DNA from: Ardenticatena maritima
Lineage (GTDB): Bacteria; Chloroflexota; Anaerolineae; Ardenticatenales; Ardenticatenaceae
Reading direction: 5' to 3'
Length of the DNA: 48,159 nt
Assembly (NCBI RefSeq): GCF_001306175.1
Contig: NZ_LGKN01000007.1
Coordinates: forward strand, 1-48,159
Position 1 is the first letter of the stretch. Each line of letters begins with the position of its first letter. A program made the position numbers and the translations under genes. Below are positions 1,570-48,159 of this stretch, piece by piece. The notes beneath the pieces are model-generated. The model saw only the letters and a program-made list of their open reading frames with translations. It did no database searches and was not told the origin of the DNA.

Positions 1570-2046
1570 ATGTTTCTGGAAAAAACACGGCGCAAACTTG
1601 AAGAAACGCGCGCCGAAACATTGGCGCTCATCGAAGGGTGCGATGAAGCGACCTTACGCGCGGCGCGTGTGAATGACGAATGGAGCGCCTTCGATGTGCT
1701 GGCGCACTTGGCGCACAGCGAAGCCGACCATCTGCGCACCATCACTGCCACGCCTGAGGAATTGGCCGAGTTTGCCGCCACCTTCGACCTTGACGCCTGG
1801 AACCGCAAGCAAACCGAGGCGTTGCGGGCGCTCTCGTTGCCCGAATTGTTGCAGCGCCTGGCGGATGTGCGCGCGCAAACAATGGCAACGCTCGCCGAGA
1901 TTGGCGAAGAGGGCATGGTGGAAAAAGTGCACCACCCTGTCTTTGGCGAGATTGAACGGGGCAAGTTGTTCCGCATTATTGCCATGCACGAGCGCATGCA
2001 CCAGCAGGATATTCGCAAAGCATTGCAGGAGGCGGCGAGTGCTTGA
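1570..2046 (+). CDS. DinB-like four-helix metal-binding protein
   Basis: 158 residues, all-helical. Histidines sit in the pattern of the DinB/YfiT/MDMPI superfamily: HLAHSEADH in the second helix and MHERMHQQD near the C-terminus, which in relatives bind one divalent metal. Family members are thiol-dependent transferases or hydrolases, many with no known substrate, and none can be proposed here. A GAGGGGGGA ribosome site precedes the ATG. The stop codon overlaps the GTG start of the downstream histidine kinase, suggesting coupled translation. A second, unrelated-looking DinB protein is encoded at 16995-17585. Confidence 0.75.
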   Translation: MFLEKTRRKLEETRAETLALIEGCDEATLRAARVNDEWSAFDVLAHLAHSEADHLRTITATPEELAEFAATFDLDAWNRKQTEALRALSLPELLQRLADVRAQTMATLAEIGEEGMVEKVHHPVFGEIERGKLFRIIAMHERMHQQDIRKALQEAASA

Positions 2047-3421
2047 CGCCGTGCGCCAATTTTTCGCCGTCAATGGCTTGCTGGTGCAAGCCCTCAACGC
2101 GCAAGGGCATTTCATTTTGGGGTTGGCGGTGTTGCTTCAATGGCGGCGTGAAAGCCAATTGGAACTGGCGCGCTCTGTGCCTTTGCTGGCCGCCTTCGGG
2201 TTGACCATTTCGCTGGCAATTTGGGCGGACATTTTCATCCCCCTGCAACAAGTCTATCTTTCGCGTGAAGCCATCGAAGCCTTGCGGCTGGGGCATGCCC
2301 TGTTGTACATTGTCGCCTACGCTTTTCTGCTCCATTTTGCCTTGCGTTTGAACTGGGTACACCCCGTGAGTGAGCATCTGCCGTGGTTGCTGGCAGTGCT
2401 TGGGAGCATGCTTGCCATCGGCGCCCAACTGCGAGGCATGCCGGCGGGCGAAGTGCTGCTGTGGGTGCAACGTCTGGGGCGTCCGAGTATCGTGTTTCCA
2501 GCGTCCTTGCTGGCGGCATGGGGATTGCGCCGCGAGGCGGAGCAGATTCAGCGCATGGGATTGCCTTCATTCATTGTGGATTGGTTGCGCATTGCGGGAT
2601 TTAGTTTTGGCTTCTACGCCATTGTGAGTGGGCTTTTTATCCCGCGTTCAGCCGACGGCCGCTCCTGGTTTTACTATGCGACAGGCATTCCCATTGACGT
2701 TTTTCAGGCGGCGGTGGGCATGGTGCTGGCGTATGCCATGACCCGCGCCTTGACCATCTTCCGCCACGAATTGCAGCGCCTGGTGGTCGTGATGGGGCGC
2801 GAACGTGCGCTGGCGGCTGACCGCCAACGCATTGGGCGCGAATTGCACGATGGCACCATCCAATCCATCTACGGCGCGGGGCTGGTACTGGAAAACGCCT
2901 ACCACCTTGTGCGCAGCGACCCCGAGACGGCGGAGCGGCTCATTCAGCATGTGATGAAAGCCCTCAATGAGACCATCGCTGATATTCGGCGCTACATTTT
3001 CGACCTTGCCGAAACCGAGGGCTCGCTGGAAGAGTTGCTGGGCGAGGTGGTGGAGGAATTTCGGGCGTCAAGTGGGTTGGAGATTGATTTCCGTATCGAA
3101 GGCAATGTCCCCCATTTTTCGCCTGAAGCCAGCAAGCATGTGCAGCAAATGGTGCGCGAAGCCCTGAGCAACATTGTGAAACACGCCCACGCGACACAGG
3201 CCAGCGTGGTGGTGCGGGGCGATGCCGATGCTGTGCGCCTGCTCATCGCCGACAATGGGCGTGGATTGCCCGAAGGCGGGGCGTATCGCCGGGGTGGGCG
3301 TGGTGTGCCCAATTTGCTGGCGCGGGCGGGCATGCTGGGGGGGCGTGCGGTCATCCGCAATCGCCCCGAAGGTGGCGCAATTGTCGAAATCACAATTCCG
3401 AATATGTTTCAAGAAGCATAA
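2039..3421 (+). CDS. Membrane sensor histidine kinase, NarL/HisKA_3 type
   Basis: 460 residues. The first about 260 residues contain roughly seven hydrophobic segments and no recognisable extracellular sensor domain, so the signal may be sensed in or near the membrane. The HisKA_3 dimerisation box RIGRELHDG carries the phospho-accepting His270, and a HATPase_c domain follows with N-box EALSNIVKHAHA and G-box DNGRGLPEGG. The GTG at 2039 is chosen because AGGAGG lies at 2027-2032 with a 6-nt gap and the start overlaps the upstream stop; longer in-frame extensions would run through the DinB gene. The partner regulator follows 80 nt downstream. The stimulus is unknown. Confidence 0.88.
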   Translation: MLDAVRQFFAVNGLLVQALNAQGHFILGLAVLLQWRRESQLELARSVPLLAAFGLTISLAIWADIFIPLQQVYLSREAIEALRLGHALLYIVAYAFLLHFALRLNWVHPVSEHLPWLLAVLGSMLAIGAQLRGMPAGEVLLWVQRLGRPSIVFPASLLAAWGLRREAEQIQRMGLPSFIVDWLRIAGFSFGFYAIVSGLFIPRSADGRSWFYYATGIPIDVFQAAVGMVLAYAMTRALTIFRHELQRLVVVMGRERALAADRQRIGRELHDGTIQSIYGAGLVLENAYHLVRSDPETAERLIQHVMKALNETIADIRRYIFDLAETEGSLEELLGEVVEEFRASSGLEIDFRIEGNVPHFSPEASKHVQQMVREALSNIVKHAHATQASVVVRGDADAVRLLIADNGRGLPEGGAYRRGGRGVPNLLARAGMLGGRAVIRNRPEGGAIVEITIPNMFQEA

Positions 3422-3501
3422 ACCGCTGACGCCATGCGTTGTTGAACAGAAGCCCAATCCCTGTTTGAAGAGCATAGGTAGAAAGTGCGAGGACGAAGAC
3501 A

Positions 3502-4161
3502 ATGAAGAAGTTGCGCATTCTCCTGGTTGATGACCATGAAGTGGTGCGGTTGGGGTTGAAAGCCTTACTCGACCGCTACCCGCAATTTGAGGTGGTGGCC
3601 GAAGCCAGCACCGCAGACGAAGCCCTGGCGCGCGTGGCACAGTACCGCCCGGACGTGGTGGTGATGGACGTGCGCTTGCCTGGCAAGAACGGGATTGAAG
3701 CCACGCGGGAAATCAAAGCCACCTATCCAGAGACAGAAGTCATCATCCTCACGTCGTATGCCGAAGATGATTTGTTGTTTGATGCGATACGGGCGGGTGC
3801 GAGTGGGTATGTGCTCAAACAGATTGGGAGCGACGACCTGGTGCGTGCCCTGGATGCCGTCGGCAAGGGGGAAGCCCTGCTGGACCCCAAGTTGACGCGC
3901 CGCGTCTTTGAGCGGGTGCGTGATGCCGAGCGCGAAGCCGAAGCCTCAGCCTTCCGCGACCTTTCCGACCAGGAATTGCGCGTGTTGGCGCTGCTGGCCG
4001 AAGGCAAAACCAACAAGGAAATTGCCCGTGAACTCTATCTGAGCAGTGGCACGGTGCGCAATTATGTGAGCAGTATTTTACATAAACTTGGGCTTGGCAA
4101 TCGCGCCGAAGCCGCCGCGTATGCGGTGCAACACCACATTTGGGACTACCTGCCTGAGTGA
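3502..4161 (+). CDS. NarL/LuxR-family response regulator
   Basis: 219 residues. N-terminal receiver domain with acidic pocket D10-D11, phospho-acceptor D56 in VVMDVRLPG, and the switch region TSYAED. The C-terminal LuxR-type helix-turn-helix shows [14 protein letters not shown] and the recognition-helix region [17 protein letters not shown]. It is the evident partner of the HisKA_3 kinase immediately upstream. Its targets are not visible; the operon position suggests autoregulation is possible, but this is inference. Confidence 0.93.
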
Positions 4162-4168
4162 GCATGCC

Positions 4169-5005
4169 ATGACCACCGTCCGCATTTCGATCGCCCAATT
4201 CAGCGTTGAGCAGGCGAACCCCACCGCGAATATGGCGACGGTGGCGGCGTATGCGGCCGAAGCCGCCGCGCGGGGGAGCGATCTGCTGGTGCTCCCGGAA
4301 CTCTGGGGGCATGGCTACGATTTGGCGCATGCCGACGCCTACGCTACCCATCCGCATGAGGGCTTGTTCGCTGAAACGGCGGCGCTGGCACGGCGGCATG
4401 GGCTGTTCATCTACGGCTCGTTGTTGGGGCGTTTGCATGGTCGCCCGGCGAATACGGCGGCGCTTTTTACCCCATCTGGAGATGTCGCCGCCACGTACAG
4501 CAAAGTGCACCTGTTTCGCCTGATGGACGAAGACCAGTGGCTGACCCCCGGCGAAGAAGCCGTCCTCGTGGATGCCCCGTGGGGGGCAACGGGGTTGGCG
4601 ATTTGCTACGACCTGCGTTTTCCTGAACTGTTTCGGCGGTATGCACTGGAAGGAGCGCAGGTCTTTTTGATTTGCGCGCAATGGCCGCAGACGCGCTTGG
4701 CGCATTGGCGCACCTTGTTGCGCGCGCGTGCCATCGAAAATCAGGCGATTGTGGTGGCATGCAACCGCTGTGGCGAAACCGACGGCACACGCTTCGGCGG
4801 GCATTCGGTGGTGTTGGATGCGTGGGGCGAACCGATTGTTGAAGCCGGGACAACCCCCGTTCTGTTGACAGCCGATGTGGATGTCGCAACTGTTTCAGCA
4901 GTGCGCCGCAAAATCCCCGTTTTCGAGGACCGTCGTCCTGATGTGTACCAGGCGAGGGTGCGGCGTGTGGCGCTCAAAGACGAGAAGGGAGAGGCAACAC
5001 CATGA
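4169..5005 (+). CDS. Carbon-nitrogen hydrolase (nitrilase superfamily amidase)
   Basis: 278 residues from the ATG at 4169, which fits the family size. The Glu-Lys-Cys triad is present: E44 in LPELWGHGYD, K112 in YSKVHLF and C146 in AICYDLRFPELFR. Closest in pattern to omega-amidase and NIT1/NIT2-like amidases, which hydrolyse small amides such as alpha-ketoglutaramate or deaminated glutathione; the true substrate cannot be told from sequence. It starts 7 nt after the response regulator and overlaps the next hydrolase by 4 nt (ATGA), so the two amide-cleaving enzymes are probably made together. Confidence 0.88.
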   Translation: MTTVRISIAQFSVEQANPTANMATVAAYAAEAAARGSDLLVLPELWGHGYDLAHADAYATHPHEGLFAETAALARRHGLFIYGSLLGRLHGRPANTAALFTPSGDVAATYSKVHLFRLMDEDQWLTPGEEAVLVDAPWGATGLAICYDLRFPELFRRYALEGAQVFLICAQWPQTRLAHWRTLLRARAIENQAIVVACNRCGETDGTRFGGHSVVLDAWGEPIVEAGTTPVLLTADVDVATVSAVRRKIPVFEDRRPDVYQARVRRVALKDEKGEATP

Positions 5006-5985
5006 CGAAACCGATGCTGGTGGCGTCGCGCAATGCGGCGGTTGGGTTTGATGAAGGCATGCGCTTGCTGCGTGAGGGGGCGTCGGCGTTGGATGCCGCC
5101 ATTGCAGTGGTGCGCATTGTGGAAGACAACCCCGATGATCATACCGTCGGCTACGGCGGGCTTCCCAACCTGCTGGGGGAAGTCGAATTGGATGCGATGG
5201 TGATGGATGGGCGCACACTCAAAGCCGGCGCGGTGGCGGCGCTCAAAGGGTTCCGCAACCCGGTGCTGGTGGCGCGCAAAGTGATGGAAGAATTGCCGCA
5301 TGTGCTGCTGGCGGGTGAGGGCGCGGCGCGCTTTGCGCGTGAAATGGGGTTCGAGGAAGCCGAGTTGCTGACTGACGAGGCGCAGCGCATTTGGCGCGAG
5401 CGGTTGACGGCGAGCGATGTGCCCGAAGATGTGGCGCGCTACTATGACCACATGCGCCGCTTTGCGCGCGATTTGGCGCGCGACCCCGAGCAAGCCGCCA
5501 AAGACGCCGGTTCGGGCGTGATGGGCACGGTGGTGGTGCTGGCGCGCGATGCGCAGGGCAACATTGCCGTGGCAACGAGTACAAGCGGCTGGGCGTGGAA
5601 GTATCCCGGCCGGGTGGGGGATACGCCCATTCCGGGCGCGGGCGGCTACGCCGATAACCGGTATGGCGCGGCGGCGTGTACCGGGCGCGGCGAAATGGCG
5701 TTGCGGGCGAATACCGCGCGCTCGATTGTGCTCTACATGAAAATGGGCTTGCCGCTCTGGAACGCCGCCCGCGAAGCGACCGCCGACCTCTATGCGCTCG
5801 ATGATGAGTTCGCCAACGTGTTGACCATCTACGCGATGGATGCGCATGGGGGGCATGTGGGGTTCAGCAATCGTCCGGGGCGCACCTACGTGTTTCAGAC
5901 GGCCGAGATGGATGCGCCCGAAGAGCGTCCCTGCACCTATGTGGACGCTGCGGGGAAAGCGCATATCCGCACGCAAGAGGCATAA
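5002..5985 (+). CDS. Asparaginase/glycosylasparaginase-family Ntn hydrolase
   Basis: 327 residues. Matches the N4-(N-acetylglucosaminyl)-L-asparaginase and plant-type asparaginase family: VGYGGLPN, then a DAMVMDG segment, then MGTVVVLARD, where T176 would be the nucleophile freed by self-cleavage into alpha and beta chains. Downstream the STSGWAWKYPGRVGDTPIPGAG segment (broken here as STSGWAWK and PGRVGDTPIPGAG) holds the conserved substrate pocket. No signal peptide is apparent, so it should be cytoplasmic. The ATG overlaps the stop of the upstream amidase. The likely reaction is hydrolysis of the side-chain amide of asparagine or of isoaspartyl dipeptides. A strong terminator follows. Confidence 0.85.
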   Translation: MTKPMLVASRNAAVGFDEGMRLLREGASALDAAIAVVRIVEDNPDDHTVGYGGLPNLLGEVELDAMVMDGRTLKAGAVAALKGFRNPVLVARKVMEELPHVLLAGEGAARFAREMGFEEAELLTDEAQRIWRERLTASDVPEDVARYYDHMRRFARDLARDPEQAAKDAGSGVMGTVVVLARDAQGNIAVATSTSGWAWKYPGRVGDTPIPGAGGYADNRYGAAACTGRGEMALRANTARSIVLYMKMGLPLWNAAREATADLYALDDEFANVLTIYAMDAHGGHVGFSNRPGRTYVFQTAEMDAPEERPCTYVDAAGKAHIRTQEA

Positions 5986-41182: not shown

Positions 41183-41641
41183 TTAGGATGCCGAGCGTTC
41201 GGCTAACAATTCGCGTACAACCTTTTGCACCAACGCCCCGTCGGCGCGCCCACGCAGTTTCGCCATGAGCGGCCCCATGACTTTGCCCATATCGCGCGGG
41301 CTTGTGGCGCCAACGGCTTCAATTTGCGCAAGCGCTTCGGCGCGGATTTCATCCTCGCTCAATTGTTCGGGCAGATATTCTTCGATGATGGCGAGTTCGG
41401 CGCTTTCTTCGGCCACCAAATCCTCGCGCCCCCCTTGCCGATATTGCTCGATGGAATCGCGCCGCTGCTTGGCTTGCTTTTGCAGCAATTGCACGATTTG
41501 TTCGTCGCTCAGTTCACCGCCATGTTCGATTTCGGCGTTTTTGATGGCGGTGAGCAGCAATCGAATGGTGTTGCGGCGCACGTCATCACGATTGCGCAAG
41601 GCTTCTTTCAGGTCTTGTTGCAAACGTTCTTTCAGGCTCAT
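41183..41641 (-). CDS. yqeY: YqeY/GatB-like protein
   Basis: 152 residues from the ATG at 41641. The helical YqeY domain is plain: LKERLQQDLKEALRNRDDVR (20 residues), RLLLTAIKNAEIE, IIEEYLPEQLSEDEI and a final GKVMGPLMAKLRGRADGALV region. It resembles the tail domain of GatB, which contacts tRNA; the role of free YqeY is not settled. It belongs to the ybeY/pgpH group; the HIT gene lies 44 nt upstream. Confidence 0.9.
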   Translation of the reverse strand: MSLKERLQQDLKEALRNRDDVRRNTIRLLLTAIKNAEIEHGGELSDEQIVQLLQKQAKQRRDSIEQYRQGGREDLVAEESAELAIIEEYLPEQLSEDEIRAEALAQIEAVGATSPRDMGKVMGPLMAKLRGRADGALVQKVVRELLAERSAS

Positions 41642-42217: not shown

Positions 42218-42247
42218 TTGACAATTTGCTTTGCGAACGATTATAAT
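42218..42247 (+). promoter_or_regulatory. Consensus sigma-70 promoter of the liv operon
   Basis: Perfect TTGACA (42218-42223) and perfect TATAAT (42242-42247) with an 18-nt spacer. Transcription should start near 42254, 36 nt before livH. This is the strongest promoter in the window and implies high expression. Confidence 0.85.
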
Positions 42248-42289: not shown

Positions 42290-43354
42290 ATGACGATCAA
42301 AGCCTCACGCCGTGCCCGAACGATGCCCGACTTCACCACGCTCATTCTTTGGGGGTTGGGTGGCATTAGTTTGCTGGTCATTCTCTACCGTATTTTTGTT
42401 GTTCTGACGACCCAAGAAGAGCTGACGGCGACCATTTGGGGGTTCCAGCTGGTCAACGGGCTTGTTCTTGGGGGTGTCTATGCCCTGATTGCGTTGGGGT
42501 ACACGCTCGTGTACGGCATTCTCTTCATGATTAACTTTGCCCACGGCGAAGTGATGATGCTGGGGGCGTATGCGGGCTACTTCACCCTGACGTTCCTCAA
42601 TGCGCGCGGCTTTATGGAAACGAACCCGATTTTGACGCTGGTGATTACGTTCATCGCGGGGATGCTCGTTTCCATGCTGGCCGGGATTACCCTGGAACGG
42701 GTGGCGTATCGTCCGTTGCGGCGTGCGCCGCGCCTTGTGCCGCTGATTACCGCTATTGGGGCGTCCATTTTCTTGCAGAATGCGGCGCTGCGTATCTTCG
42801 GTTCCAAGTTGCGGGTGTATGTGAAGCCGAGTGTCATTGAAGGGGGCTTCCGCCTGGGTGAATCGGGGATTTTTGTGCCGCGCACCGGTGTGCTCATTTT
42901 CGTCACCTCGATTTTGCTGATGATTGGCTTGTACCTGTTGGTGCAATACACCAAGTTGGGGAAAGCCATGCGCGCGGTCGCTGAAGACAAAGACACCGCC
43001 GCGCTGATGGGGATTGACGTTGACCGCGTGATTGTCCAAACGTTTATGCTTGGTTCGCTGCTGGCGGGTGCCGCCGGGGTGATGCTGGGCTTCCACAATA
43101 GCCAGGTCAACGCCTTCATCGGCTTCATCCCCGGAATCAAAGCCTTTACGGCGGCGGTGTTGGGGGGGATTGGTAACATCCCCGGCGCTATGTTCGGCGG
43201 CTTCTTCCTGGGGTTGGCGGAATCCCTGGGGCCGACGGCGCTGGGTATTCCGTCGCAGTACAAGGACGTGATTGCGTTCAGTTTGCTGGTGTTGGTGCTC
43301 ATCTTCCGCCCGACGGGTCTGTTGGGTGAAGTGTTGTCTGAAAAGCGAGCCTAG
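42290..43354 (+). CDS. livH: Branched-chain amino-acid/amide ABC permease LivH
   Basis: 354 residues, about eight membrane helices plus an extra N-terminal helix. Family marks: GLVLGGVYALIALGYTLVYG (20 residues), INFAHGEVMMLGAY, and the cytoplasmic loop AMRAVAEDKDTAALMGIDVD. With LivM it forms the transmembrane channel. AGGGGGAG lies 5 nt before the ATG; another ATG is at 42323. The genes livM, livG, livF and livK follow in order. Confidence 0.92.
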   Translation: MTIKASRRARTMPDFTTLILWGLGGISLLVILYRIFVVLTTQEELTATIWGFQLVNGLVLGGVYALIALGYTLVYGILFMINFAHGEVMMLGAYAGYFTLTFLNARGFMETNPILTLVITFIAGMLVSMLAGITLERVAYRPLRRAPRLVPLITAIGASIFLQNAALRIFGSKLRVYVKPSVIEGGFRLGESGIFVPRTGVLIFVTSILLMIGLYLLVQYTKLGKAMRAVAEDKDTAALMGIDVDRVIVQTFMLGSLLAGAAGVMLGFHNSQVNAFIGFIPGIKAFTAAVLGGIGNIPGAMFGGFFLGLAESLGPTALGIPSQYKDVIAFSLLVLVLIFRPTGLLGEVLSEKRA

Positions 43355-43372
43355 TTGGGGAGACAAACCACC

Positions 43373-45076
43373 ATGCGGAACGTGCGATTGGGAATCCGCG
43401 ACGGTCTGATTTTTGGCGTTGTGTTTCTGTTCGTCGTGCTGGTGGGCTTGTATGGGGCGTTTGCCGCCAATAGCCTGCTGGGTGTCAGTGTGCCGAATAT
43501 GATTTTTGCGCTCTTTGGGGTGTGGGTGGGCGCGTATGTGATGCGAACGGTTCGCCGTGATGGTGGACAGATTGGCGAAGGTGCGCTGTCGGCTGCCGTG
43601 GCCGGCGCCACGATGACGGTTTTGCTGGCGCTCTTCACCTTCTGGGCGAGCCGTGTCAACTTGCGCGACGTGTTCGCCAATATCACACCTGAGACGGTGG
43701 AGCTGCTGACGTTTGGGCGCGGTGTGCCCACCGGTTTGGTGCTGCAAGTGGTTGGCGGCGTGGTGTTGGCGCTGGTAGGCGCTTTCGGCAATGTGGCGTG
43801 GAACCGCATTCGTTTGCCCGAAGGCGCAACCGCAACGGGCAACCGCCTCGCTTCCTTCTTGCTGGTGCTCTATGTCATCGTCGGCGGGGTGACGGCGCTC
43901 TTGTTCGCCTTGGGGCAGTGGATGCCCGCCCTGCGTGAACTCGCGGAAGGCCCGTTGGGCTTTGCGCTTCCGAATGACCTCTACCGCATTTTGCGCATTG
44001 GTGCTGTGGTGCTGATTGTCGGGTATCTGGGCGGGATTGCCCTGTCGCTGGCGGCGCCGGCGCAAGCCGTGCGCCTCAAAGAACGCCTGACCACCACGCG
44101 CCGCCTCTTTGGCATTGCCTTCATTCTGCTGGCGCTCTTCTTCCCGCTTTCGCTGGGGAGCTATTGGAACCAGGTGCTCACCACCATTGGCATTTTCGTG
44201 ATGATGGGGTTGGGCTTGAACGTGGTGGTCGGTTTCGCCGGCTTGCTCGACCTGGGGTATGTCGCCTTCTTCGCTATTGGCGCGTACACCTACGCCTTTC
44301 TCAATTCGCCAAAGTATGGGCTGGACCTTTCGTTCTGGCTTTCGCTACCGATTGCGATGATGGTGGCGGCGTTGGCGGGGATTATCCTGGGTGTGCCGGT
44401 GTTGCGGATGCGTGGCGACTACCTGGCGATTGTGACGCTGGGCTTTGGTGAAATCATCCGCCTCATCATGAACAACCAGACTGAGCTGACCGGTGGGGCG
44501 CAGGGCATTTTGCAGATTCAGCCGCCGGAGATTTTTGGCTTTGTCATCAATACACCGCTGCGCTTCTACTACTTGATTTTCATCGGGGCGGTGTTGGTTG
44601 CGTTTGTGACGGCGCGGCTCAACAATTCGCGTATTGGGCGCGCCTGGATTGCAATGCGTGAAGATGAAGACGTTGCGCAAGCCATGGGAATCAACACCGT
44701 CAATTACAAGTTGCTGGCGTTTGCCACGGGTGCCGCGTTTGCCGGCCTGGCCGGGCTGATTTTCGCCGCCCGTCAGCGCAACATCTTCCCCGCCGACTTT
44801 GGGTTGCTGGTTTCGATTGAAGCGCTTTCGCTCATCATCATCGGTGGGATGGGCTCGATTCCCGGCGTGATTGCCGGCGCGGTGGCGCTCAAGGGGTTGC
44901 CTGAGCTGTTGCGCGCCTTGCAGGAATACCGCCTGCTCATCTACGGGGCTTTGCTGGTGGTGATGATGCTGGTACGCCCCGAAGGGTTGTTGCCCTCGCG
45001 CCGACGTGCACGCGAAATCCATGAAGCCATGGAAGACATCGAGATTGACGAAGCCGAGTTGAAAAGTACGGCATAG
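43373..45076 (+). CDS. livM: Branched-chain amino-acid/amide ABC permease LivM, N-terminally extended
   Basis: 567 residues from ATG 43373 (GGGGAG at 43357-43362). The C-terminal about 330 residues are LivM: LGLNVVVGFAGLLDLGYVAF (20 residues), YLAIVTLGFGEIIRLIMNN and IAMREDEDVAQAMGIN. The first about 230 residues add roughly five membrane helices not found in the ordinary 300-425-residue LivM. Their role is unknown. It follows livH after 18 nt. A TTG at 43355 is a less likely start. Confidence 0.9.
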   Translation: MRNVRLGIRDGLIFGVVFLFVVLVGLYGAFAANSLLGVSVPNMIFALFGVWVGAYVMRTVRRDGGQIGEGALSAAVAGATMTVLLALFTFWASRVNLRDVFANITPETVELLTFGRGVPTGLVLQVVGGVVLALVGAFGNVAWNRIRLPEGATATGNRLASFLLVLYVIVGGVTALLFALGQWMPALRELAEGPLGFALPNDLYRILRIGAVVLIVGYLGGIALSLAAPAQAVRLKERLTTTRRLFGIAFILLALFFPLSLGSYWNQVLTTIGIFVMMGLGLNVVVGFAGLLDLGYVAFFAIGAYTYAFLNSPKYGLDLSFWLSLPIAMMVAALAGIILGVPVLRMRGDYLAIVTLGFGEIIRLIMNNQTELTGGAQGILQIQPPEIFGFVINTPLRFYYLIFIGAVLVAFVTARLNNSRIGRAWIAMREDEDVAQAMGINTVNYKLLAFATGAAFAGLAGLIFAARQRNIFPADFGLLVSIEALSLIIIGGMGSIPGVIAGAVALKGLPELLRALQEYRLLIYGALLVVMMLVRPEGLLPSRRRAREIHEAMEDIEIDEAELKSTA

Positions 45077-45103
45077 CCGAGTGTGAGAAGACGGAGCACG
45101 CAG

Positions 45104-45919
45104 ATGAGCGATTACATTCTCGAAGCACGTGGGGTGACCAAACGCTTTGGCGGTCTGGTGGCGGTCAATCGCGTCAATTTCACGATTGAACGCCGCACGA
45201 TTGCCGGGCTGATTGGCCCAAACGGGGCTGGCAAGACGACGTTTTTCAACTGTCTCACCGGATTGTACAAGGCTGATGAGGGCGAAATCATCTTTGACGG
45301 CAAGTATTCGCTGATTGGCGTCCCGCCCGACCGTATTACGGCGTTGGGGATTAGCCGCACGTTCCAGAACATTCGTCTTTTCGGGAGTATGACGGCGTTG
45401 GAAAATGTCATGGTCGGCACGCATTGCCGCACCAAGTCGAACATGATTGATGCGATTTTCCACACGCCGCGCTATCGCCGTGAAGAGGCGTGGGCGCGCA
45501 AACGTGCGCTGGAATTGCTGGAATACGTGGGAATGGCGGATGCCGCGGATGAAGTGGCAACCAGCCTGCCCTATGGCTACCAGCGCCGCCTGGAAATCGC
45601 CCGCGCGTTGGCAACCGAGCCGAAACTGCTCTTGCTCGACGAGCCGACGGCGGGGATGAACCCGAACGAAACCGAAGAGATGACCGACCTGATTCGGCGC
45701 TTGTGTGATGATTTGGGGCTGAGCATTCTGCTGATTGAACACGATATGCGTGTGGTGATGGGGATTTCCGACAAAGTCAGCGTGCTTGACCATGGCGAAC
45801 TCATCGCCGAGGGGACGCCCGAAGAAGTGCAAAAGAATCCCAAGGTCATTGAGGCGTATCTTGGGACAGTGGGGACGGAACAGGCCGCCGAAGCACGGCG
45901 ACGCGGGAGGGACGACTAG
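45104..45919 (+). CDS. livG: Branched-chain amino-acid ABC ATP-binding protein LivG
   Basis: 271 residues from the ATG at 45104. Walker A GPNGAGKT, the LivG-typical FQNIRLFGSMTALENVMVG, Walker B LLLLDEPTAGMNPNE and switch His in LIEHDMRVV. The usual signature LSGGQ is replaced by LPYGYQRRLEIARALA, as is normal in LivG. It powers the LivHM channel together with LivF. Its stop overlaps the GTG start of livF by one base. Confidence 0.95.
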   Translation: MSDYILEARGVTKRFGGLVAVNRVNFTIERRTIAGLIGPNGAGKTTFFNCLTGLYKADEGEIIFDGKYSLIGVPPDRITALGISRTFQNIRLFGSMTALENVMVGTHCRTKSNMIDAIFHTPRYRREEAWARKRALELLEYVGMADAADEVATSLPYGYQRRLEIARALATEPKLLLLDEPTAGMNPNETEEMTDLIRRLCDDLGLSILLIEHDMRVVMGISDKVSVLDHGELIAEGTPEEVQKNPKVIEAYLGTVGTEQAAEARRRGRDD

Positions 45920-46623
45920 TGCTCGAATTGAAGAATGTTCACACGTTCTATGGTCATATTCACGCGCTGAAAGGGATCTCGCTGACGGTGGAAGAAGGCG
46001 AGATTGTCACCCTGATTGGCTCGAACGGCGCCGGGAAAACAACCACCCTGCGCACCATCAGCGGCTTGTTGACGCCGCGCGAAGGGGAAATTTGGTTTGA
46101 AGGACAGCGTATTGACGGCTTGCCGGCGCACAAGATTACCGAGATGGGTATCGCGCATTGTCCCGAAGGGCGCAAAATTTTCGGGCGTTTGACGGTGCGC
46201 GAAAATTTGGAACTGGGCGCTTTTTTGCGTAAAGATAAAGATGGTATCAAGGAAGACTTCGAGCGTGTGCTCAACCTGTTCCCGCGCTTGCGCGAACGGC
46301 TCAAACAACCGGGGGGAACACTCTCCGGCGGTGAACAGCAGATGCTGGCGATTGGACGCGCGTTGATGAGCCGTCCGCGCATTCTCCTGTTGGACGAGCC
46401 GAGCATGGGGTTGGCGCCGATTCTGGTTCAGCAAATTTTCGACATCATCAAGGAAATCAACGAGCAAGGCACAACTGTCCTGCTGGTGGAACAAAACGCG
46501 CGCTTGGCGCTTTCAATTGCTACGCGCGGCTATGTCCTCGAAACCGGACGCATTCGCTTGGCCGGACCGGCGGCCGAGTTGATGGATAGCGAGGAAGTCA
46601 AAGCCGCCTATCTGGGCGGTTGA
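45919..46623 (+). CDS. livF: Branched-chain amino-acid ABC ATP-binding protein LivF
   Basis: 234 residues, GTG start with GGGAGG upstream. Walker A GSNGAGKT, signature LSGGEQQMLAIGRALM, Walker B ILLLDEPSMGLAP and VEQNARLALSIATRGYVLET (20 residues), the normal LivF layout. It partners LivG. A 56-nt gap with a small stem (GGTTG / CAACC) precedes livK. Confidence 0.95.
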   Translation: MLELKNVHTFYGHIHALKGISLTVEEGEIVTLIGSNGAGKTTTLRTISGLLTPREGEIWFEGQRIDGLPAHKITEMGIAHCPEGRKIFGRLTVRENLELGAFLRKDKDGIKEDFERVLNLFPRLRERLKQPGGTLSGGEQQMLAIGRALMSRPRILLLDEPSMGLAPILVQQIFDIIKEINEQGTTVLLVEQNARLALSIATRGYVLETGRIRLAGPAAELMDSEEVKAAYLGG

Positions 46624-46679: not shown

Positions 46680-48159
46680 ATGCGCAAATATCTCATTGCC
46701 TTGATGGTGCTTCTGGCGCTGGCGTTGGCCGCCTGTGGTGGTGGCGGTGAAGAGACGACGGCGACGGAAGAACCGCAAGCCGGCAGGGAAACCACGGAGC
46801 AGACCGGCGGGGAAGCCGCGACAGTGGAAGACCCGTGGGGTGTGGTGGAGTTGGCGCCGGGAGAACCGGTGAAGATAGGGTTTGCCGCGGGGCTGAGCGG
46901 CGACGTGGCGAACCTGGGGATTGACATGCAGAACGCCGCGGAGTTGGCGGTGGAAGACAAGCCGGAAATCAAGGGGCACCCGGTGGAGTTGGTGGTCGAA
47001 GACTCGCAATGCTCGGGTGAAGGCGGGACGGCCGTGGCGCAGAAGTTTGCGGCGGACGGGAAGATCCTGGGCGTTGTGGGGCACATGTGCTCGAGCGCAT
47101 CGATTCCGGCGAGCGACATTTACGAACAGGCGCACATCGTGATGATTAGCCCGTCTTCGACGGCGGTGGCGCTGACGAGCCGCGGGTTGGAGACGGTGAA
47201 CCGCGTGGCGTGGAACGACGCAGTGCAGGGGTCGGCGGCAGCCGAGTACCTGTACAACGAGTTGGGAGTGCGGAAGGTCGCGGTGATTCACGACGGGTCG
47301 GCGTATGGTCAGGGCCTGGCGGACGTGTTCAAGGAAACGTTCGAGGGTCTTGGCGGGGAAGTGACCGACTACGAAGGGATCACGGTTGGCGAAAAGGACT
47401 TCCGTGCGACGTTGACGAAGATTGCGGCGAACGCACCGGAGGCGATTTACTTTGGTGGGTTCCAGGCGGAAGCGGCGTTGCTGGTGAGCCAGAAGAACGA
47501 AGTGGGCCTGGAAGATGCGATTTTCTTCACGGACGACGGTGCGTTCTCGGACCAGTACATTGAAGCGGCCGGTGGGGCGGCGGAAGGGTCGTATGCGACG
47601 TTTGCAGACCTGCCGGCGGGGTCGCCGGAGTTGGAAGCGTTCCGCGCACGGTACAAGGAGAAGTACGGCGTGGAGCCGAGCGAACTGGGACCGTTCCACG
47701 CGCACGCGTATGACGCGACGATGGTGCTGCTGAACGCGATTGAGAAAGTGGCGGTGGAACGGGAAGACGGCACGCTGCTGATTCCGCGCAAGGCGTTGGC
47801 GGAAGCGGTGCGTGCGACGAAGAACTACCAGGGTCTGAGCGGCACGATTACGTGCGACGAGAAAGGCGACTGTGGTTCGGCGAACATCATCATCTACCAG
47901 GTGCAGAACGGCGAATGGGTGCGCGTCTTCCCGCCTGAGGGCGAAAGCATGGGCGGTGAAGAAGGCGCTGTGGACGTGAGCAATGACCCGTGGGGCGTAG
48001 TGGAGTTGGCGCCGGGTGAACCGGTGAGGATTGGGTTTGCCGCGGGGCTGAGCGGCGACGTGGCGAACCTGGGGATTGACATGCAGAACGCCGCGGAGTT
48101 GGCGGTGGAAGACAAGCCGGAAATCAAGGGGCACCCGGTGGAGTTGGTGGTCGAAGACT
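46680..48159 (+). CDS. livK: Branched-chain amino-acid/amide-binding lipoprotein LivK, duplicated in frame (partial)
   Basis: At least 493 residues, open to the window edge. A signal peptide ends in the lipobox LAAC with C19, followed by a Gly/Glu/Thr-rich linker and a Peripla_BP_6 domain (about residues 50-425): VKIGFAAGLSGDVANLGIDM (20 residues), ISPSSTAVALTS, VIHDGSAYGQGLADVF and the GPFHAHAYDATMVLL stretch. At residue 436 a second copy of the domain begins, with DPWGVVELAPGEPVRIGFAA nearly identical to residues 51-70 of the first; no stop lies between. So the gene seems to encode two tandem binding domains on one lipoprotein. The rest of the second domain is outside the window. AGGAGG lies just before the ATG. 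Confidence 0.88.
   Translation, partial: MRKYLIALMVLLALALAACGGGGEETTATEEPQAGRETTEQTGGEAATVEDPWGVVELAPGEPVKIGFAAGLSGDVANLGIDMQNAAELAVEDKPEIKGHPVELVVEDSQCSGEGGTAVAQKFAADGKILGVVGHMCSSASIPASDIYEQAHIVMISPSSTAVALTSRGLETVNRVAWNDAVQGSAAAEYLYNELGVRKVAVIHDGSAYGQGLADVFKETFEGLGGEVTDYEGITVGEKDFRATLTKIAANAPEAIYFGGFQAEAALLVSQKNEVGLEDAIFFTDDGAFSDQYIEAAGGAAEGSYATFADLPAGSPELEAFRARYKEKYGVEPSELGPFHAHAYDATMVLLNAIEKVAVEREDGTLLIPRKALAEAVRATKNYQGLSGTITCDEKGDCGSANIIIYQVQNGEWVRVFPPEGESMGGEEGAVDVSNDPWGVVELAPGEPVRIGFAAGLSGDVANLGIDMQNAAELAVEDKPEIKGHPVELVVED
46830..47004 (+). repeat. Direct repeat within livK, copy 1
   Basis: These 175 nt match 47985-48159 with 5 differences (two at the DPWGVV codons, three in the EPVKIG region); the last about 125 nt to the window edge are identical. 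Distance between copies is 1,155 nt (385 codons), in frame. Confidence 0.95.
47985..48159 (+). repeat. Direct repeat within livK, copy 2 (cut by window end)
   Basis: Second copy of 46830-47004. Only one of the five base differences changes the protein (Lys to Arg). The repeat may extend beyond the window. Confidence 0.95.

Follow-up and report, generated by a model that had tools for sequence, protein, structure and literature searches.

Binding proteins normally occur as one per importer, or as tandem copies fused to one importer. The predicted protein considered here resembles two known families. With LivJ/LivK binding proteins it shares the Peripla_BP_6 family, the liv operon context and a lipoprotein-like signal, while it differs from them in having two copies per chain, fused to a DppA-type domain. 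With the DppA/OppA family (SBP_bac_5, cluster C), the common features are the sequence, the predicted fold and the dppBC genes downstream, while the differences are a circular permutation, the fusion behind LivK, and that no dppDF genes of its own were found nearby. Two tandem binding domains near a translocator are also present in GlnPQ of Lactococcus (PMC8025302). The GlnPQ domains, however, are continuous with the membrane domain of a single importer, while here domains of different families would form a separate lipoprotein beside two importers. A naturally circularly permuted binding protein is Treponema MglB-2 (Tp0684), designated 'Type Ic / Cluster Bc' (PMC4990184), which belongs to the cluster B (type I) glucose-binding family, while the permuted domain described below is of the SBP_bac_5 family, is frequent in one bacterial class and is often fused. 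A literature search covering titles and abstract openings, with subscription journals mostly outside its scope, recognised neither a permuted SBP_bac_5 domain nor a single lipoprotein that combines binding domains from different families, and a survey of binding-protein repertoires (PMC9602780) contained no mention of fused, tandem or permuted forms.

Layout of the locus

The stretch of DNA analysed here (the window) is the whole of contig C7, 48159 of 48159 nt, from a genome of 12 contigs and 3.56 Mb (labelled G000). The source organism is a hot-spring bacterium. The genes livH, livM, livG and livF are colinear with their homologues in genomes G001, G002, G005 and G021, and the fused binding-protein gene lies directly behind them, which places it in a liv operon context (Table 1). 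The translation of livG more likely starts at the in-frame ATG at 45104 than at 45083. The promoter-like site before livH was the only match between positions 41500 and 48159, where shuffled sequence gave a mean of 1.7. The 3′ end of a bacterial LSU rRNA gene (RF02541, cut at its 5′ side) is located at positions 1-134, at the opposite end of the contig. Because this gene lies at one end and the LivK repeat at the other, C7 probably breaks at repeats on both sides.

Table 1. Features of the window and of the probable continuation of the fused gene
Feature	Position	Strand	Remarks
Sigma-70-type promoter-like site	42218..42247	+	Perfect TTGACA-18-TATAAT, 12/12 matches, 42 nt 5′ of livH
livH, branched-chain amino acid permease	42290..43354	+	ORF; name by resemblance
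livM, permease	43355..45076	+	ORF; name by resemblance
livG, ATPase	45083..45919	+	ORF; name by resemblance
livF, ATPase	45919..46623	+	ORF; name by resemblance
Fused binding-protein gene, 5′ part	46680..48159	+	Cut by the end of C7; begins MRKYLIALMVLLALALAAC, lipoprotein-like signal
Repeat copy 1, start of LivK 1	46830..47004	+	175 nt, 97% identical to copy 2
LivK 1, complete Peripla_BP_6	46866..47912 (residues 63-411)	+	Pfam, E 2.9e-62
Linker between LivK 1 and LivK 2	47934..47984	+	Without lipoprotein signal; junction sequence unique in the window
Repeat copy 2, start of LivK 2 (first 58 codons)	47985..48159	+	Cut at the contig end
Inferred continuation of the fused gene	C11, 26989 (contig end) to ~24654	-	Rest of LivK, circularly permuted SBP_bac_5, stop, then dppB, dppC

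The reading frame of the fused gene is open from 46680 to 48158, with zero stops, and the LAAC motif near the N-terminus of the protein is presumably a lipobox. LivK 1 matched the Pfam Peripla_BP_6 profile with 211.8 bits (cut-off 31.7) over profile positions 1-342 of 343, and a second Peripla_BP_6 stretch follows it in the same frame. The nearest solved chains to LivK 1 were amino-acid binding proteins, e.g., 3td9 and 2lbp. The score of LivK 1 against NCBIfam PRK15404, the high-affinity branched-chain amino acid binding protein, was under the cut-off (209.3 versus 477 bits), and therefore this specific subfamily is not claimed for LivK. The two copies of the repeat differ at 5 of 175 nt (46841, 46844, 46862, 46873 and 46877 in copy 1); four of these differences are silent at codon position 3, while one is nonsynonymous and changes K to R at the start of copy 2. 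A chance repeat is ruled out by the 97% identity over 175 nt, in register and in frame. The open frame, the Pfam matches and the alignment bear out the earlier note, which had described a complete Peripla_BP_6 domain followed in frame by a nearly identical copy, i.e., tandem fused binding domains.

Probable continuation of the gene on a second contig

Across the whole genome, matches of comparable length to the window gene were found only in C7 itself and at the end of contig C11. Each of these contigs ends within LivK, and their orientations are compatible. On the minus strand of C11 the LivK sequence continues, without leaving the frame, into a domain that Pfam identifies as SBP_bac_5, followed by a stop and by the genes of DppB and DppC, which were named by resemblance. 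The C11 LivK differs from copy 1 at 9 positions in 753 nt, and as all nine differences are synonymous, the protein is identical where it can be compared. The earlier note had stated that its reading would be contradicted if the frame were stopped or shifted shortly beyond the window edge, and neither was seen on the C11 continuation. Contigs C9 and C10 matched over 38 nt only, in the part that encodes the lipoprotein signal, and these matches lie in unrelated operons. A separate intact gene for the second LivK copy was not found in the genome, in which the other LivK-like genes were 23-36% identical to the queries. The window gene thus very probably resumes on C11 of the same genome, and we infer from the two contig ends that the encoded protein is a single lipoprotein, LivK-LivK-cpDppA, with its gene located between livHMGF and dppBC.

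The end of C7 lies 127 nt past the last difference between copy 1 and copy 2, which is the expected behavior of a k=127 de Bruijn assembly that halts where two copies become identical. The draft genome of Ardenticatena maritima 110S, which is likely the source of this assembly, was assembled with SPAdes, with no k given (PMC4653789). The same rule fails to explain the start of C11, which lies 13 nt before the first LivK difference, while about 127 nt would be predicted. The gap between C7 and C11 is spanned by no read or contig, and about 204 nt of copy 2 are missing if there are two LivK copies; there may also be a third copy, or a partner other than C11.

Related genomes contain genes of the same type. 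In the congener G001, with 97% protein identity to the C11 frame, one contig (C10) ends after livHMGF and the start of LivK (to about residue 96), while the end of another (C94) carries LivK from about residue 181, the permuted peptide domain and dppBC. This break at nearly the same LivK residues is as expected if G001 also has a LivK repeat, but a plain gap would leave the same picture. G161 contains an intact LivK-LivK-cpSBP5 gene of 1337 aa inside a 109-kb contig, in which LivK 1 and LivK 2 share 347 of 370 residues. An intact gene of 1348 aa is present in G317, where the two LivK domains agree at 256 of 376 aligned positions. The Pfam families of these two homologues are all binding-protein types, without a permease fusion. 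The two-LivK gene of G161 adjoins a LivK-cpSBP5 paralogue of 957 aa, and the peptide domains of the two match at 503 of 506 residues. In G002, which belongs to the family of the window's organism, an intact LivK-cpSBP5 gene with a single LivK is present.

Two other explanations of the contig ends were considered. The neighboring one-LivK and two-LivK paralogues of G161, together with the unspanned gap, are compatible with two genes, of which one would be a LivK-LivK (or longer) array on C7 ending in an unsequenced part, and the other a separate LivK-cpSBP5 gene on C11. We regard this as unlikely, because the genome search with the window gene returned C7, C11 and the two 38-nt signal matches with no further LivK start, and because G001 repeats the arrangement, with one contig end after livF-LivK and another before LivK-cpSBP5. 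An assembly error, in which a single LivK exists and C7 gained its second copy through a false join, could be suspected at a contig end of a short-read draft. It is highly improbable, given that the join passes in frame through a linker that is unique in the window, that the copies differ at 5 sites while C11 contributes 9 more differences, and that two other genomes of the class carry intact two-LivK genes built in the same way, one of them within the 109-kb contig.

Age and history of the LivK copies

The comparison of copy 1 with the LivK copy on C11 gave dS of 0.049 and dN of 0 over 708 nt, while dS between G000 and G001 over the same segment was 0.42. These values agree with the very recent duplication or continuing gene conversion that had been proposed from the window alone. 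Both LivK copies look constrained, as all 9 of the 9 differences are synonymous. The pair has the look of a single specificity that was duplicated recently or has been homogenised, and G001 has no overlapping copies by which duplication age and gene conversion could be told apart.

The livHMGF operon of G002 and G005 is closed by a separate LivK gene of its own, which is 64-65% identical to copy 1, and the LivK fusion, whose LivK is 78% identical to copy 1, sits elsewhere. In the window, a fusion-type LivK is placed directly behind livF, and in a quick LivK tree of 27 rows the window copy grouped with the C11 copy and G001. Plausibly, the Ardenticatena lineage saw a merger of the two loci, with livK as the meeting point.

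The permuted SBP_bac_5 domain

The C11 frame matched Pfam SBP_bac_5 with 283.4 bits (cut-off 32.4). Its residues 278-650 correspond to DppA 123-502 and are followed by residues 691-768, which correspond to DppA 35-118, so the parts stand in permuted order. Because the chain order is non-canonical, the domain is a permuted variant and not a canonical DppA; its score against the NCBIfam DppA_dipep equivalog was also under the cut-off (200.6 versus 1005 bits). An AlphaFold model of a permuted homologue (L072), obtained with a 13-row alignment, had pLDDT of 83.5 and pTM of 0.82. Residues 1-388 of this model aligned to DppA 121-507 (Z 27.8, rmsd 4.1, 378 aligned), and the last quarter of L072 is, by sequence, the part that is N-terminal in DppA; in the 50 structural matches listed for the model the alignment reached only to about residue 390.

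The permuted order was found in 13 of the 80 loci kept by a search of genome contigs, 12 of them in records titled as Chloroflexota or its lineages and one as Devosia, and one more locus (L084) has a different cut. Among the frames of these 80 loci, 14 were permuted, 62 were canonical and 10 contained the C-part only. Of 396 genomes of the class, 168 matched the permuted query with E of at most 1e-75. The permuted order was confirmed in 70 of the 71 genes with both parts (10 loci and 60 regions, the regions being a non-random sample in which 30 were chosen for long frames). In a quick tree of 105 rows based on the C-part only, the 42 rows labelled permuted need 6 changes, of which 3 are forced by starred branches; in this tree the deep rows L034, L035 and L036 are uncertain, and L150 carries an automatic label that has no support from the frame-order classification. 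The permutation may have arisen once or more than once.

The Devosia locus (L080:7854-9527, +) is a permuted SBP_bac_5 gene within a 2.7-Mb contig of a record titled Devosia sp. FKR38. Its domain is 61% identical to that of the window genome, and its presence there could reflect either a transfer or a mixed assembly. Locus L084 (1134-2927, +), from a Thermoflexales MAG, has a signal-like N-terminus and an SBP_bac_5 with a different permutation point, in the order C148-378, N1-111, C1-148 on the scale of the frame-order classification. A canonical SBP_bac_5 was present in the middle of a 1852-aa open frame in L118 (5478-11033, +), which runs off the locus.

Modular fusions and neighboring permeases

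Among the 71 genes, 25 contained a fused SBP3 and 8 a fused LivK. The combinations observed were SBP3-cpSBP5, LivK-cpSBP5 and LivK-LivK-cpSBP5, with LivK-SBP3-cpSBP5 in G023 and LivK-SBP3, without SBP5, in G005. In G053 (L158:934-3774, +), a gene located between livF and dppBC joins LivK to an SBP5 with the canonical order, so that LivK fusion has also taken place with the canonical form. In L027 and L028 (from G049 and G014), a permuted SBP5 gene adjoins a separate SBP3 gene, as an unfused counterpart of SBP3-cpSBP5. In G161, G220 and G317 (L178, L180 and L181), the LivK fusion is preceded by a gene with two SBP3 domains in one frame (565-633 aa), which represents a further tandem binding protein and is followed by a HisM-type gene.

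A dppB gene was located at most 6 kb downstream in 51 of the 58 genes with at least 2.8 kb of downstream sequence. The presence of a HisM-type gene nearby was compared for the 53 permuted genes that had 4.5 kb or more of downstream sequence; the other 18 of the 71 were dropped, 17 for too little sequence and one as canonical. HisM-type genes accompanied 11 of 17 genes with fused SBP3 versus 3 of 36 without it (Fisher p 3.8e-5, ignoring kinship). Each of the three exceptions without fused SBP3 had a separate SBP3 gene nearby, and for 6 of the 17 fused-SBP3 genes no HisM was found. G002 and G005, with the same outer neighbors, carry LivK-cpSBP5 with dppBC and LivK-SBP3 with hisM, respectively, as though a single exchange had replaced both the C-terminal domain and the permease that follows it. 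Liv genes near the fused LivK were not found in G002, G161, G220, G317 and G023.

A general interpretation of these arrangements, offered tentatively as slightly short of evenly probable, is that Chloroflexota of this class possess modular composite receptors, in which LivK, SBP3 and cpSBP5, from three unrelated families, are variously joined on one lipid anchor, and each chain would work for two or three unrelated ABC importers whose genes surround its own. A domain would be gained or lost along with its cognate permease, and cpSBP5 with its new ends would be the enabling module, with a further cut point in L084.

Proposed function

The gene of the window probably encodes a composite lipid-anchored receptor (signal, LivK, LivK, cpDppA), which would lie between livHMGF and dppBC and most likely feeds two importers. 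Amino acids would be captured by the LivK domains, which would dock on LivHM, powered by LivGF, and short peptides by the permuted DppA domain, which would dock on DppBC. One transcript could yield the anchored receptor chain together with two pairs of permeases and the ATPase pair LivGF. Sharing an anchor and a transcript would keep the receptors for the two importers close together and in a fixed ratio. The class of Chloroflexota concerned is a large, mostly uncultured bacterial group. If the model is true, a single anchored chain with receptors of different families, located between the genes of different importers, would be a new wiring of nutrient uptake in this group. The series of natural forms, with one LivK, two LivK, swapped partners and moved permutation points, could serve studies of binding-protein evolution and docking, and annotation by one domain name would conceal such composite genes.

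Genes for dppD or dppF were not found beside dppBC on C11, and the genome contains four ATPases with an oligo_HPY tail, all on C6. DppBC would borrow DppDF-type ATPases encoded elsewhere; shared ATPases have precedents among sugar importers (PMC7658222). The LivK pair would act as a doubled amino-acid receptor, which a recent intragenic duplication produced or gene conversion keeps uniform. The tandem domains of GlnPQ show the same binding as the isolated domains and compete for docking (PMC8025302), and by analogy, two identical LivK domains would raise occupancy and not alter specificity. The suggestion that the pair may allow two ligand specificities found no support, as the protein is identical where the C11 copy is comparable, with one K-to-R change in copy 2. 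For the whole protein two specificities are likely, because a permuted DppA-type domain follows LivK; the second would reside in this third domain, which is outside the window and was therefore not visible to the earlier note.

The composite protein could also be mainly a scavenging buffer or sensor, whose fused domains need not dock on the adjacent permeases. Some LivK fusions are without nearby liv genes, and in L189 the permuted domain is joined to caspase-like and FHA domains, which suggests sensing. This explanation appears quite improbable in view of the dppB gene that follows 51 of 58 genes at a distance of at most 6 kb, and of the association of fused SBP3 with HisM (11 of 17 versus 3 of 36), for which the three exceptions have a separate SBP3 nearby. 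It is also opposed by the comparison of G005 and G002, where, between the same outer neighbors, a change of the C-terminal domain goes along with a change of the permease behind it. A receptor that feeds both importers is the reading that we prefer for the window gene. The L189 frame (1908-5165, +) encodes 1086 aa with Peptidase_C14 (caspase-like), FHA and permuted SBP_bac_5 domains, and is perhaps a sensor or signaling use of the permuted domain.
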